The notes beneath the pieces were generated by a model that saw only the letters and a list, made by a program, of their open reading frames with translations, did not search any database and was not told the DNA's origin. A stretch of DNA of 49,993 bases, taken from NCBI GenBank assembly GCA_003696075.1, contig RFHH01000061.1, positions 1 to 49,993 on the forward strand. The letters run 5' to 3'. Source of the stretch: Acidobacteriota bacterium. GTDB lineage: Bacteria; Acidobacteriota; Polarisedimenticolia; J045. This document shows positions 37,496-41,662 of this stretch, piece after piece. A program made the translations under genes and the position numbers. Every line of letters begins with the position of its first letter. The first letter of the stretch is position 1.

Positions 37496-38050
37496 ATGAC
37501 GGAAGGCGAGAGGGGAGACGGGGGGCGGTCGGCCCACCTGGTGGCTCTGTTGGATCTGATCGAACGGCCCGCCGCCGCGGTGACCGAGGAGGGAAAGCTC
37601 CTGGGAGGGAACGCTCTCTTCGGCGCACTCGCCGCCCGGTGCGGACACGATGCGCCGGAGCGACTCGCCGAGGTTCTCCCTGAAGAAGACGCCCGCGCGG
37701 TCGGGAACGCGGTGGCGGGCGGCGACCCGCCCGCTACGGTACGTCTTCGCGACGGCCGCGAGGCGCCGGTTCGGGTCCAGGCGATCGACGCGGGGGAGGG
37801 ACCCCGGTACGGTCTCGTCGTGATCGAGACGGAGGAGACTTCGTCCCGCAGGGCGGCGGCGCGCGCCTGTGCCGCTCTGCGCCACGAGCTCGCGGGGCCG
37901 CTGACGGCGATACTCGGCACCGCGGAGATGCTGCTCGTCCAGCGGCCCGACCTCCCGCGCGAGGTGCGCGATCGGCTGGGCGAGATTCTCGACAACTGCG
38001 GGCGGATCTCCGAGATCATCACGCGCGCACGCCGGGCGCATGACGACTGA
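37496..38050 (+). CDS. PAS-HisKA protein lacking an ATPase domain
   Basis: 184 residues. Residues 15-110 look like a PAS/sensor fold (LLDLIERPAAAVTEEGKLLG, then RYGLVVIETEE). Residues about 118-178 are a HisKA dimerisation helix pair with the H-box ALRHELAGPLTAILGTAEML, phospho-accepting His H130. The protein stops there: the N, G1, F and G2 boxes of a HATPase domain are absent, and the next gene's ATG overlaps its end by 11 bases, so it is not a broken kinase by an obvious frameshift. It could receive phosphate from another kinase or act as a phosphatase for the neighbouring regulator. It is coupled to the NtrC-class gene. Confidence 0.7.
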   Translation: MTEGERGDGGRSAHLVALLDLIERPAAAVTEEGKLLGGNALFGALAARCGHDAPERLAEVLPEEDARAVGNAVAGGDPPATVRLRDGREAPVRVQAIDAGEGPRYGLVVIETEETSSRRAAARACAALRHELAGPLTAILGTAEMLLVQRPDLPREVRDRLGEILDNCGRISEIITRARRAHDD

Positions 38051-39476
38051 CGGAACGCCGGAGGCTCCGGGACGCGCCGACCCGGGCAGGGTCCTGATCG
38101 TCGACGACGAGCGCGGCGTGCGCGAGGTCACCGCGCACCGGCTCAAGGCTCTCGGGCACGAAGTCGACGACGTGGGCAGCCTCGCGCAGGCGGCGGCGAG
38201 GGTTCACGCGCGGCCCTACGACGTCGTCCTCACCGACCTGATGCTGGCGGACGGGACGGGGATCGATCTGCTCGAGCAGGTGAAGGCGGACGGACTCGAT
38301 GTCGAGGTGATCATCATGACGGGCCGCGGCGGCGTCGAGGATGCCGTTCGCGCCATCCGCCGGGGCGCCTACGACTTCATCACCAAGCCACTCGACCGGA
38401 CCCGATTGGAGCTGGTGATCAGCAAGGCTCTCGAGAAGCGGAGGCTGGAACGGGACCTGGCGAGACTTTCGCGGGGCGAACGCGACGGATTCGGCGATCT
38501 GGTCGGCTCCTCGGCGCCGATGCAGGCGCTTTACCGGGTGCTCGAGAAGGCGGCGGAGAGCGACAGCACCGTGCTCCTTCTCGGCGAATCGGGCACCGGG
38601 AAGGAAGTGGCGGCGCGGGCGATCCACGAGCGTTCGAAGCGTCGCGGCGGCCCGTTCGTGCCGGTGCACTGCGGGGCCCTGCCGCGCGATCTGCTCGAAA
38701 GCGAGCTGTTCGGCCATCGTCGGGGCGCCTTCACCGGGGCCGATCGCGACAAGCGCGGCCTGATCGCGGCGGCGGACGGCGGGACGCTCTTCCTGGACGA
38801 GCTGGGAACCGCGCCTCCGGCGTTGCAGGTCAAGCTCCTCCGGGTCCTCCAGGAGCACTGCGTGCGTCCTCTCGGCGGCGTCGAGGACGTCAAGGTCGAC
38901 GTGCGCGTCATCGCCGCGACGAACGCCGACCTGGACGCCGAGATCGAGGCGGGACGTTTCCGGTCCGATCTTTATTTCCGCCTGGCGACCGTCGTCGTGA
39001 GGCTGCCGCCCCTTCGCGAGCACCGCGAGGACATCCCCCTGATGGTGGGTGTGCTGTGCGACCGTATCGCGCGGCGGACCGGACGGGCCGTCCGGTTGAG
39101 CCCCCGGGCGGTCGAGCGCCTGATGGCGTACGACTGGCCCGGCAACGTCCGGGAACTCGAGCACGTGATCGAACGTGCCGCGCTGCTGTGCGACGGCCCC
39201 TTGATCCGCGCCCGCGACCTGCCGCTCGATCCGCCCGCCGTCGAGAACCGGATCCCGACGCTGGAGGAGTTGGAGCGGGAGCACATCGAGCGCGTGCTCA
39301 AGCTGTGCGGCGGCAACAAGCTGAAGGCGGCGCGCCTGCTCGGGATCCCCCGGGGAAACCTGTACCGGCGCCTGCAGCGGTACGGGATCGGCCGGGACGG
39401 CTCGGCCGGCGGAGCGGAGGCGCGAACGCCGGGAAAGGGCGTCCCGGGGACGAAGCCTCCCGCCGGGGGGCCTTGA
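38040..39476 (+). CDS. NtrC-family sigma54-dependent response regulator
   Basis: 478 residues. The receiver domain (15-130) has acidic DDE, phospho-acceptor D66 in LTDLML, and K in FITKPLD. The AAA+ domain (about 155-390) has Walker A GESGTGKE (182-189), the sigma54-contact loop GAFTGA (229-234), Walker B LFLDELG, and an Arg finger region FRSDLYFRLATVVVRLPPLR. A Fis-type helix-turn-helix (about 425-450) has GGNKLKAARLLGIPRGNLYR. When phosphorylated it should form a ring that opens sigma54 promoters. The nearest such promoter is at 40329-40344 and is a plausible target. The tail after residue 455 is Gly/Pro-rich. Confidence 0.92.
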   Translation: MTTDGTPEAPGRADPGRVLIVDDERGVREVTAHRLKALGHEVDDVGSLAQAAARVHARPYDVVLTDLMLADGTGIDLLEQVKADGLDVEVIIMTGRGGVEDAVRAIRRGAYDFITKPLDRTRLELVISKALEKRRLERDLARLSRGERDGFGDLVGSSAPMQALYRVLEKAAESDSTVLLLGESGTGKEVAARAIHERSKRRGGPFVPVHCGALPRDLLESELFGHRRGAFTGADRDKRGLIAAADGGTLFLDELGTAPPALQVKLLRVLQEHCVRPLGGVEDVKVDVRVIAATNADLDAEIEAGRFRSDLYFRLATVVVRLPPLREHREDIPLMVGVLCDRIARRTGRAVRLSPRAVERLMAYDWPGNVRELEHVIERAALLCDGPLIRARDLPLDPPAVENRIPTLEELEREHIERVLKLCGGNKLKAARLLGIPRGNLYRRLQRYGIGRDGSAGGAEARTPGKGVPGTKPPAGGP

Positions 39477-39823
39477 GCAGAAGCGGTCAGCGACCGCCGG
39501 AGGCGGGGCGAGCGGCGTCCGCGGCGGCGCGCGCCGGCATCCGGCCCGGCGGCGGATCGCTCGCCATCGCGCGGGACGGCCGGGGCCAGAGCCGCGGGAC
39601 GGGCACCCGCTAGGGCGGCGACCGGCAGCCTCTCGGTGTACCGAGATGCCGCCGGCCGCGCCTCCCGGGGCCAACGCTGGGGCGGCCCACCTCTGACGCG
39701 CAGTCGGCCCGCGGGACCGCCGGCGCCGGGACGACCGGCCAGCGGGCCGGCCGTGCCGCTGCCCGCCGGCAGCGCGAAGGCCGGCTCCCGGATCGCGACG
39801 AGAGTGTGGCCGGGCGCGGGCAC

Positions 39824-39839
39824 TGTCCGCCCGCGGACA
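39824..39839. repeat. Perfect inverted repeat, candidate enhancer site
   Basis: TGTCCGC-CC-GCGGACA: 7-bp arms with a 2-base centre, the right size for a dimeric Fis-type helix-turn-helix. It lies about 530 bases upstream of the sigma54 start point. A half-site (GCGGACA) recurs at 40212-40218. Confidence 0.35.
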
Positions 39840-40275
39840 AAAGGCGGCGCCTCAGCGCGCTCCGGCTGACGTGGAGTGTCACCTCCCGCGCCGGGCTCCG
39901 GGCCGCCGGAGCGCCGTCCGGACGGGAGAGGGAACTCCCCGACAACGGGAACGTCAGGCACCCGGCGAACCGCCGATCGTCGAGGGCTCCCGGTGCGCCC
40001 ACCGGCGTCCGCTGGCCGGGCCGGCTCCGCCGGTCGCCGGAAAACCGCTGTGCGGAGCGGACTTCCGCCGATGGCACGGTCGGCCCCGGCGGTCTCCCCG
40101 GCGGGATGACGGACCGGGAGCGCTCGACGCCGAGGGTCGCACACCGCCGGCACCAGCCCCCGGCGGGAGCCGCGCCGGAACGCGAGGACCTCCGGGCCCC
40201 AGCGTCCCCCAGCGGACACTTTCGGAGCGCGCCGCGACGGTGCCGGGCGAGGCCTCGGGGCCCCCGACGCCGCTA

Positions 40276-40312
40276 AGGATCGGTCCTGCGCGGCCGAAGA
40301 GAGGATCGGTCC
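40276..40312. repeat. Direct repeat just upstream of the sigma54 promoter
   Basis: AGGATCGGTCC occurs twice with 26 bases between starts. Each copy is an imperfect dyad (GGA-TCGG-TCC). They lie about 45-80 bases before the predicted start point, so they could be activator or repressor sites. Confidence 0.4.
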
Positions 40313-40328
40313 CGGCGGACGCTCCCTC

Positions 40329-40344
40329 TGGCACGCCCGTTGCT
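40329..40344 (+). promoter_or_regulatory. Sigma54 (RpoN) -24/-12 promoter
   Basis: TGGCACGCCCGTTGCT matches the consensus TGGCACG-N4-TTGCW at every defined position, preceded by the usual pyrimidine. The start point would be near 40355, 31 bases before the first of three closely spaced genes. An NtrC-class activator with the GAFTGA loop is encoded just upstream. Confidence 0.85.
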
Positions 40345-40385: not shown

Positions 40386-40718
40386 ATGGAACGAGCCCAC
40401 ACCGGACCCCAGATCACCGCACGGCGCGAGGGGAGCCCCCATGCCCTCCGTCCGGTCGACGCCTTCGTCGTCGGCGGCGACGTCGCCTGGGAAACCGGCG
40501 AGAACCTGTGGCTGCTCCTCTCCCGCCCTGGCGAGAAGTTGATCGATTTCTTCATCGAGGACGAGGACGACGCTCCCAGCGTCGCCGCCGACCCGGCGCC
40601 GTTCGCGTGCGCGGGCGTGCGTCCCGACGGGACCGTTCTCGTGGGTGCGATCGACTGGGAGACGGATCGTTTCCTCTCCGAGCTGTTGGACGAGCAAGAA
40701 GAGGCCGCTCGACGCTGA
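40386..40718 (+). CDS. Small acidic protein of unknown function
   Basis: 110 residues, ATG preceded by GGGGGAGA. No signal peptide or membrane segment. It has an alternating hydrophobic/charged pattern with a central LWLLLSRPGEKLIDFFIEDE and a very acidic stretch, ending in FLSELLDEQEEAARR. I recognise no family. It is the first gene under the sigma54 promoter, and the next ATG follows after 15 bases. A regulatory or adaptor role is inferred from context only. Confidence 0.55.
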   Translation: MERAHTGPQITARREGSPHALRPVDAFVVGGDVAWETGENLWLLLSRPGEKLIDFFIEDEDDAPSVAADPAPFACAGVRPDGTVLVGAIDWETDRFLSELLDEQEEAARR

Positions 40719-40733
40719 GCGGCAGGGGGAATC

Positions 40734-41003
40734 ATGGGCACCACCGTGCTGGAATCGACCACCGACCGCCGGGACACCGACTCGCGAACCACGTTCCACG
40801 ACCTCGAGCCGCGCCTCGAGGCGGTGGACCGGGAGCGACTGCAGGCCTTCGCCTCCACGCTGGCGGCGCAACTCGTCGCCGAGGCGATGGACGAGCGGGC
40901 GGAACGGGTCGCCCTCGTCTGCGGCGGGAGGCGGATCGAGGCGGTCCCGCTGGACCCGCGCCGGATCGTGCGGGCGATGGCCCGTCACGCCTGCTTCAAC
41001 TGA
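40734..41003 (+). CDS. Small protein of unknown function
   Basis: 89 residues, mostly one long helix (DLEPRLEAVDRERLQAFAST) followed by a short beta pair (ERVALVCGGRRIEAVPLDP) and a final helix. No family is recognised and no export signal is seen. It is the second gene of the sigma54 unit. AGGGGGAATC precedes the ATG. The downstream start is 11 bases after its stop, so translation is likely coupled. Confidence 0.5.
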   Translation: MGTTVLESTTDRRDTDSRTTFHDLEPRLEAVDRERLQAFASTLAAQLVAEAMDERAERVALVCGGRRIEAVPLDPRRIVRAMARHACFN

Positions 41004-41014
41004 TCTCCGCGCCG

Positions 41015-41662
41015 ATGACCGTCGCCCTGCCGACAAAGGCCGCCCAAAGAAGCGGTTCCGCCTTCGGACGCCTGCTGGCGCGGATCGCTCACGACATGAA
41101 CAACTGCCTCGCCCGCATCAACGGCAAGGCGGAACTGGCCTTGATGCTCGATCGGCCGGAGCGGTTCCGCTCCGCCCTCGAAGAGGTGCTCGCGGCGGGG
41201 CAGCGGGCGAGCGTCCTGGTGGCCGACTTCCAGCGGGTGCTCGCGTGGCGAGGGCTGCGTCCGGGGTGCGAGGAAGGCGCCATTCCCCTGATCGATGCGC
41301 TCTCCGTGGCCGCCCGTCTCTGGTCGGGCCCGCGGGAGGAGTCGGGAGGTCTCGTCGCCGGCGGGACCGGCCCGCGGGTGGATCCGCCCGTGGCCGCCGC
41401 TCTCGTCATCGCTCTCGGCGCGATCGTGGCCGAGGCGGCGCGCGCGGCACCACCCGGTGCCGTTTGCCGTCTGGAAGCGCTCGACGGTCCCCGAGGCTGG
41501 CGCGCCGCCGTCGTCGTTCCCGGGCTCAGCCTGCCGCGCGAACGGATGCGGGAGCTGGAGGGTGCGGAGGAGGAAGGAGACCTCGCTGCGGCGGTCGCCA
41601 CGCTTCGAGAGGCCGGCGCGACGATTCACGTCGACGGCGACCGCATCGTGATCGACGGCTGA
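41015..41662 (+). CDS. DHp phosphotransfer protein with degenerate ATPase half (Spo0B/ChpT-like)
   Basis: 215 residues. Residues 15-75 form a kinase-type dimerisation helix pair, with H26 in LARIAHDMNNCLARINGKAE, the H-D-x-N-N variant of the H-box. The remaining 130 residues follow the layout of a HATPase domain without its ligands. The N-box position reads ALGAIVAEAARAAPPGAVC (no Asn), the G1/D-box reads VVVPGLSLP (no Asp-x-Gly), and the G2 region reads EEGDLAAAVATLREAGATIH. ATP binding is therefore unlikely. This is the build of histidine phosphotransferases such as Spo0B and ChpT. It should pass phosphate between receivers, perhaps to the NtrC-class regulator. It ends 17 bases before the convergent protease gene. 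Confidence 0.65.
   Translation: MTVALPTKAAQRSGSAFGRLLARIAHDMNNCLARINGKAELALMLDRPERFRSALEEVLAAGQRASVLVADFQRVLAWRGLRPGCEEGAIPLIDALSVAARLWSGPREESGGLVAGGTGPRVDPPVAAALVIALGAIVAEAARAAPPGAVCRLEALDGPRGWRAAVVVPGLSLPRERMRELEGAEEEGDLAAAVATLREAGATIHVDGDRIVIDG

Follow-up and report, generated by a model that had tools for sequence, protein, structure and literature searches.

A Conserved Sigma54 Promoter With Predicted Activator Sites and a Sigma28-Type Element Upstream of a Small Signalling Operon in an Uncultured Acidobacteriota Bacterium

Genomic Context

The locus described here lies in a window of 49,993 nucleotides, the whole stretch of DNA that was analysed, from a high-G+C genome of 3.29 Mb. It comprises a gene for a small HisKA protein, a gene for an NtrC-type response regulator (hereafter ntrC), an intergenic region with several candidate control elements and three genes which are read as an operon (Table 1). 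The family set used for comparison contains 12 genomes including that of the host, hence 11 relatives; one further genome, G012, belongs to another family, and two others, G037 and G033, are more distant. This set consists mostly of draft metagenome-assembled genomes, the relatives being uncultured, metagenome-assembled Acidobacteria.

Table 1. Genes and DNA elements of the locus (window positions).
Feature	Position	Strand	Remarks
Small HisKA (DHp) protein	37496..38050	+	No ATPase domain; overlaps the ntrC start; start codon assigned by reading
NtrC-type response regulator	38040..39476	+	PF00072 receiver, PF00158 sigma54-activation AAA+, PF02954 Fis-type HTH
Far activator-type site (predicted)	39824..39839	.	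Palindrome TGTCCG-CCCG-CGGACA; single genome copy, recurs at the locus in relatives
Near activator-type site (predicted)	40203..40218	.	CGTCC-CCCAGC-GGACA; consensus TGTCY-N6-GGACA, 1 mismatch; 126 bp upstream of the -24 element
Sigma28 (FliA)-type promoter (predicted)	40274..40300	+	TAAGG-N14-GCCGAAGA; flagellin-promoter matrix
11-bp direct repeat AGGATCGGTCC	40276-40286 and 40302-40312	+	Exact in the window; judged incidental
Sigma54 promoter	40329..40344	+	-24 TGGCACG, N4, -12 TTGCT; inferred start ~40355
Operon gene 1, 110 aa	40386..40718	+	No Pfam or NCBIfam match
Operon gene 2, 89 aa	40734..41003	+	No Pfam or NCBIfam match
Operon gene 3, 215 aa, most likely ChpT-like histidine phosphotransferase	41015..41662	+	HisKA PF00512, no HATPase match

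As proposed in the initial annotation, a gene of the NtrC class is located beside the promoter: its product carries a receiver domain, an AAA+ domain with an intact GAFTGA loop and a helix-turn-helix domain, as found in NtrC-type enhancer-binding proteins. The scores of this protein are below the cut-offs of NtrC proper (NCBIfam TIGR01818, 381.9 bits for a cut-off of 558.6) and of FlgR and FlbD (NF049963 and NF050807, 306 and 273 bits for a cut-off of 750), and it is therefore best described as an NtrC-type regulator without a named subfamily. An orthologue is located directly upstream of the promoter in eight of nine same-family relatives and in G012. The HisKA-only protein encoded directly before it, which is likewise conserved in the family, gives the locus the appearance of a two-component pair without a complete kinase alongside.

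The proteins expected to read such promoters are present. The host genome encodes RpoN (PF04552, E 1.4e-64), FliA (TIGR02479) scores above its cut-off in all 12 family genomes, with the gene of the host located within a flagellar operon, and flagellin is found in 11 of the 12.

The Sigma54 Promoter

The element TGGCACGCCCGTTGCT, i.e., TGGCACG-CCCG-TTGCT, is the sole sigma54 site without mismatch within the window. It agrees with the TGGCAC(G)-N-TTGC(T/A) pattern and has the GG-N10-GC spacing, and the exact match reported in the initial annotation is thus present. The element precedes the orthologue of the first operon gene in all nine same-family genomes which carry this gene and also in G012, which has TGGCACGTACCTTGCC at the corresponding position with a protein identity of 41%. 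Counting the window, it is exact in nine of ten family genomes, the exception being G010 with TGGCACA. In a gapless alignment centered on the site, 11 of the 12 motif columns are invariant across ten genomes, with a mean column majority of 0.675 in the N4 spacer and 0.50 in the other flanks. Weaker -24/-12-like sites are found ahead of the homologues of the 110-aa gene in G037 and G033. The initial annotation had considered that such a site, ahead of a gene cluster and beside an NtrC-class gene, was unlikely to arise by chance; this view is upheld by its conservation and by an expectation, based on composition, of only 9e-6 matches to TGGCACGN4TTGCW per 100 bp upstream of a given gene on one strand. 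Judged from these sequence comparisons, the element is a genuine sigma54 promoter and not a chance match, from which transcription would depend on an activator. Elsewhere in the family genomes, exact sigma54 sites are mostly found ahead of unrelated genes, without TGTCY-N6-GGACA operators.

Candidate Activator Sites

A palindrome upstream of the promoter had been put forward as a candidate operator. The sequence TGTCCGC-CC-GCGGACA is present as described, being strictly a 7+2+7 inverted repeat of 16 bp; its reported distance of about 530 bp holds when measured from the inferred start, and is 505 bp from the -24 element. A genome scan for TGTCCGN4CGGACA, of the kind proposed in the initial annotation, retrieved a single copy, at this locus (0 for the control). 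The palindrome is exact in G002, G003, G004, G005, G010 and G011, near-exact in G006 and G009, and located at -226 to -261 in relatives versus -505 in the window. Its conservation, its single copy and its absence where ntrC is missing from the locus make a role as operator likely, and it is probably an activator site, as predicted from the sequence.

A second site, which was not part of the initial annotation, is closer to the promoter than the palindrome. This near site, placed between -121 and -126 relative to the -24 element, has 0-2 mismatches in eight other family genomes and 1 mismatch each in the window and in G012. In G008, both operators are absent (best matches with 3 mismatches) and the sigma54 and sigma28-type elements are retained; the HisKA gene is followed by the promoter within ~430 bp, with ntrC missing between them. 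This joint absence of ntrC and of both operators ties the operators to the regulator, as far as a single event in an assembled metagenome can do so.

A role of these sites in a genome-wide flagellar regulon was considered and rejected. The scanned flagellar loci (L102, L103, L106 and the flagellin loci) contain no TGTCY-N6-RGACA pattern, which occurs only twice in the whole genome, so that the regulator appears to act locally. A composite pattern search in 41 genomes of the class gave five matches, four of them at this locus.

The initial annotation had also pointed to an 11-bp direct repeat as a candidate operator. Both copies of AGGATCGGTCC exist exactly as described, the first one overlapping the -35 region of the sigma28-type promoter. 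As an operator, the repeat was rejected since it has no counterpart in relatives: it is private to the host genome, and in the relatives the repeats at this place do not exceed 5-8 bp and the 11-mer is matched with 2-5 mismatches. Among model intergenic regions of equal length, 27% contain an 11-bp repeat with both copies within 100 bp, versus 1.4% of segments of 100 bp.

Other features of the intergenic region vary within the family. The promoter is separated from ntrC by 852 bp in the window (39476-40329) versus 239-320 bp in same-family relatives, and the additional ~500 bp contain no clear gene. At about -158 from the -24 element, G004, G011, G006, G002 and G005 share a conserved inverted repeat resembling GTGTCA-N5-TGnCAC, whose half-site is similar to that of the operators with a different spacing, and which is not evident in the window. 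In addition, TGTCCGCATGCGGACA recurs in G004 (C15:79, C58:79 and C122:7315) and G005 (C18, C47, C230 and C497); two of its copies lie exactly 79 bp away from the end of a contig, and it is probably a repeat element.

The Sigma28-Type Element

Between the near site and the sigma54 promoter, the sequence TAAGGATCGGTCCTGCGCGGCCGAAGA, which the initial annotation did not report, resembles a promoter read by FliA. Flagellin promoters of the family (L114-L132) have the form TAAAG-N14-NCCGANAA, which can serve the group as a FliA consensus, and 14 of these promoter sequences were used to build a matrix. The window has the same N14 spacing between its -35 and NCCGA elements, with a -35 (TAAGG) that differs by one base from the family consensus TAAAG. 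No other site in the 50 kb, on either strand, matches the matrix as well, and the score of 14.9 in the window was reached by 0 of 300 model sequences. In all ten family genomes, the best match to the matrix is located at -53 to -56; it is far above the model sequences in nine of them, and in G005 its score is reached by ~5% of these sequences. Given these matches and the presence of FliA, a FliA-dependent start is the best reading of the element. In G012 (75% completeness), no match to the matrix was obtained at the locus and no flagellin was detected.

The link to motility is thus suggested by the sigma28-type element. Distant homologues of the 110-aa gene occur in genomes without detected flagellin (notably G015, with a completeness of 99%), and the gene is missing from some flagellated genomes, which indicates that a flagellar tie would be family-specific at best.

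Products of the Operon

The 110-aa gene has orthologues with 58-71% identity in nine of the 11 relatives of the family, and the structure model of its product is poor (pLDDT 49). A homologue of the 89-aa gene is found in nine of nine same-family relatives. The gene of the 215-aa protein was detected in neither G004 nor G010. This protein was modeled with a pLDDT of 87 as HisKA helices with a degenerate ATPase-like domain lacking ATP-binding boxes, the arrangement expected of ChpT, and contains an invariant acceptor residue, H26, in an HD-x-NN motif. With a conserved acceptor histidine and no ATP-binding domain detected, this protein is most likely a ChpT-like phosphotransferase, which would transfer phosphate between a kinase and a response regulator. 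The best Foldseek matches are ChpT-type phosphotransferase structures (4qpj, 4qpk, 4fmt and 4fpp).

Alternative Explanations

In G+C-rich DNA, the sigma54 match might be a chance string: about 0.6 copies of TGGCACGN4TTGCW are expected per genome from composition, only two were observed and the reversed-pattern control also gave two. These counts alone are insufficient, and it is conservation which decides for a real site, as the same position is kept across genera while the spacer and flanks drift; a chance origin is refuted by these comparative data and is hardly credible. A real promoter might also be driven by another sigma54 activator, with the neighboring regulator acting elsewhere. Such activators are able to act at distant genes, and G008 retains the promoter without ntrC at the locus; the conserved adjacency, an operator pattern almost unique to the locus and the joint loss of ntrC and both operators in G008 make this explanation improbable.

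Being downstream of ntrC, the far palindrome could instead form an RNA hairpin terminating ntrC transcription rather than a protein site, a function which would fit its loss together with ntrC in G008 and the GCGTTTTT sequence which follows the repeat in G010. Across genera, however, its arms, unlike its loop, are near-identical, a T run is missing in most copies, and TGTCY-N6-GGACA recurs at a fixed distance of -121 to -126 from the promoter, so that a terminator is quite unlikely and an activator site is preferred. Finally, the sigma28-type element could be the site of another protein, considering that the -35 of the window departs from the consensus and that relatives have GAAAG instead of TAAAG. 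This is rather unlikely, since spacing and -10 region are the same as in the 14 flagellin promoter sequences, FliA is present, and the element is absent from G012, the genome in which flagellin was not detected.

Proposed Mechanism and Related Systems

Collectively, these comparisons make it very probable that a dual sigma54/sigma28 promoter, activated through its sigma54 element by the adjacent NtrC-type protein, drives the signalling operon 40386-41662. The sigma54-RNA polymerase would bind the -24/-12 element, and the regulator, once phosphorylated, would bind the two TGTCY-N6-GGACA sites and open the complex by hydrolyzing ATP, with its GAFTGA loop mediating this step. From an additional start near 40306, FliA would also switch the operon on with the late flagellar genes. 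The ChpT-like product would probably feed back into phospho-signalling, perhaps to the regulator itself. A further idea, that the HisKA-only protein, the ChpT-like phosphotransferase encoded in the regulator's own sigma54/sigma28 operon and the two small proteins form a phosphorelay checkpoint tying sigma54 activation to flagellar assembly, is tentative and we consider it unlikely.

All three kinds of DNA elements are conserved, and rpoN, FliA, flagellin and the regulator are present. The sigma54 promoter, two operator sites, a second promoter of flagellar type and the likely activator can be read from genome comparison, which provides a defined predicted binding sequence and target operon, the relative lacking ntrC serving as a natural control. 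The general organization is that of NtrC-family-activated sigma54 promoters, with a -24/-12 element of GG-N10-GC spacing, upstream inverted repeats, an adjacent AAA+ activator with a GAFTGA loop and rpoN, but in an uncultured Acidobacteriota. We know of no described regulator matching the TGTCY-N6-GGACA operator. As in the FlrBC hierarchy of Vibrio and the FlgSR hierarchy of Campylobacter and Helicobacter, an NtrC-type activator, sigma54 and FliA are combined in a motile bacterium. In contrast to these systems, the regulator is far below the FlgR and FlbD cut-offs, the cluster lacks a complete kinase, and the target is a short operon of signalling genes, none of the neighbors examined encoding a flagellar structural component. 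A ChpT-like phosphotransferase is also suggested by the locus, and such proteins are mainly known from Alphaproteobacteria. The 215-aa protein shares with ChpT from Caulobacter and Brucella its two-domain fold (DHp and degenerate ATPase-like) and has these proteins at the top of its Foldseek list, but the identity is low (16-22%) and ordinary kinase cores tie with ChpT-type structures by Z in VIA alignments.

Control by sigma54 and FliA appears to be little studied in Acidobacteriota: no such study, nor any report on this system, was found in the open-access literature searched, and a large survey of sigma54 regulons from 2025 does not mention Acidobacteriota by that name (PMC12316311).

Outside the family, signalling functions are again found beside the distant homologues. 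The homologous cluster of G012 includes a GAF-SpoIIE phosphatase, a CheY-like protein and a GTPase-GAF-kinase fusion. The distant homologues (L030 in G012, L031 in G037 and L033 in G033) cluster with a CheY-like protein and with a long protein which starts with an MglA-like small GTPase; in G012, this long protein is a GTPase-GAF-HisKA-HATPase fusion adjoining the phosphatase.
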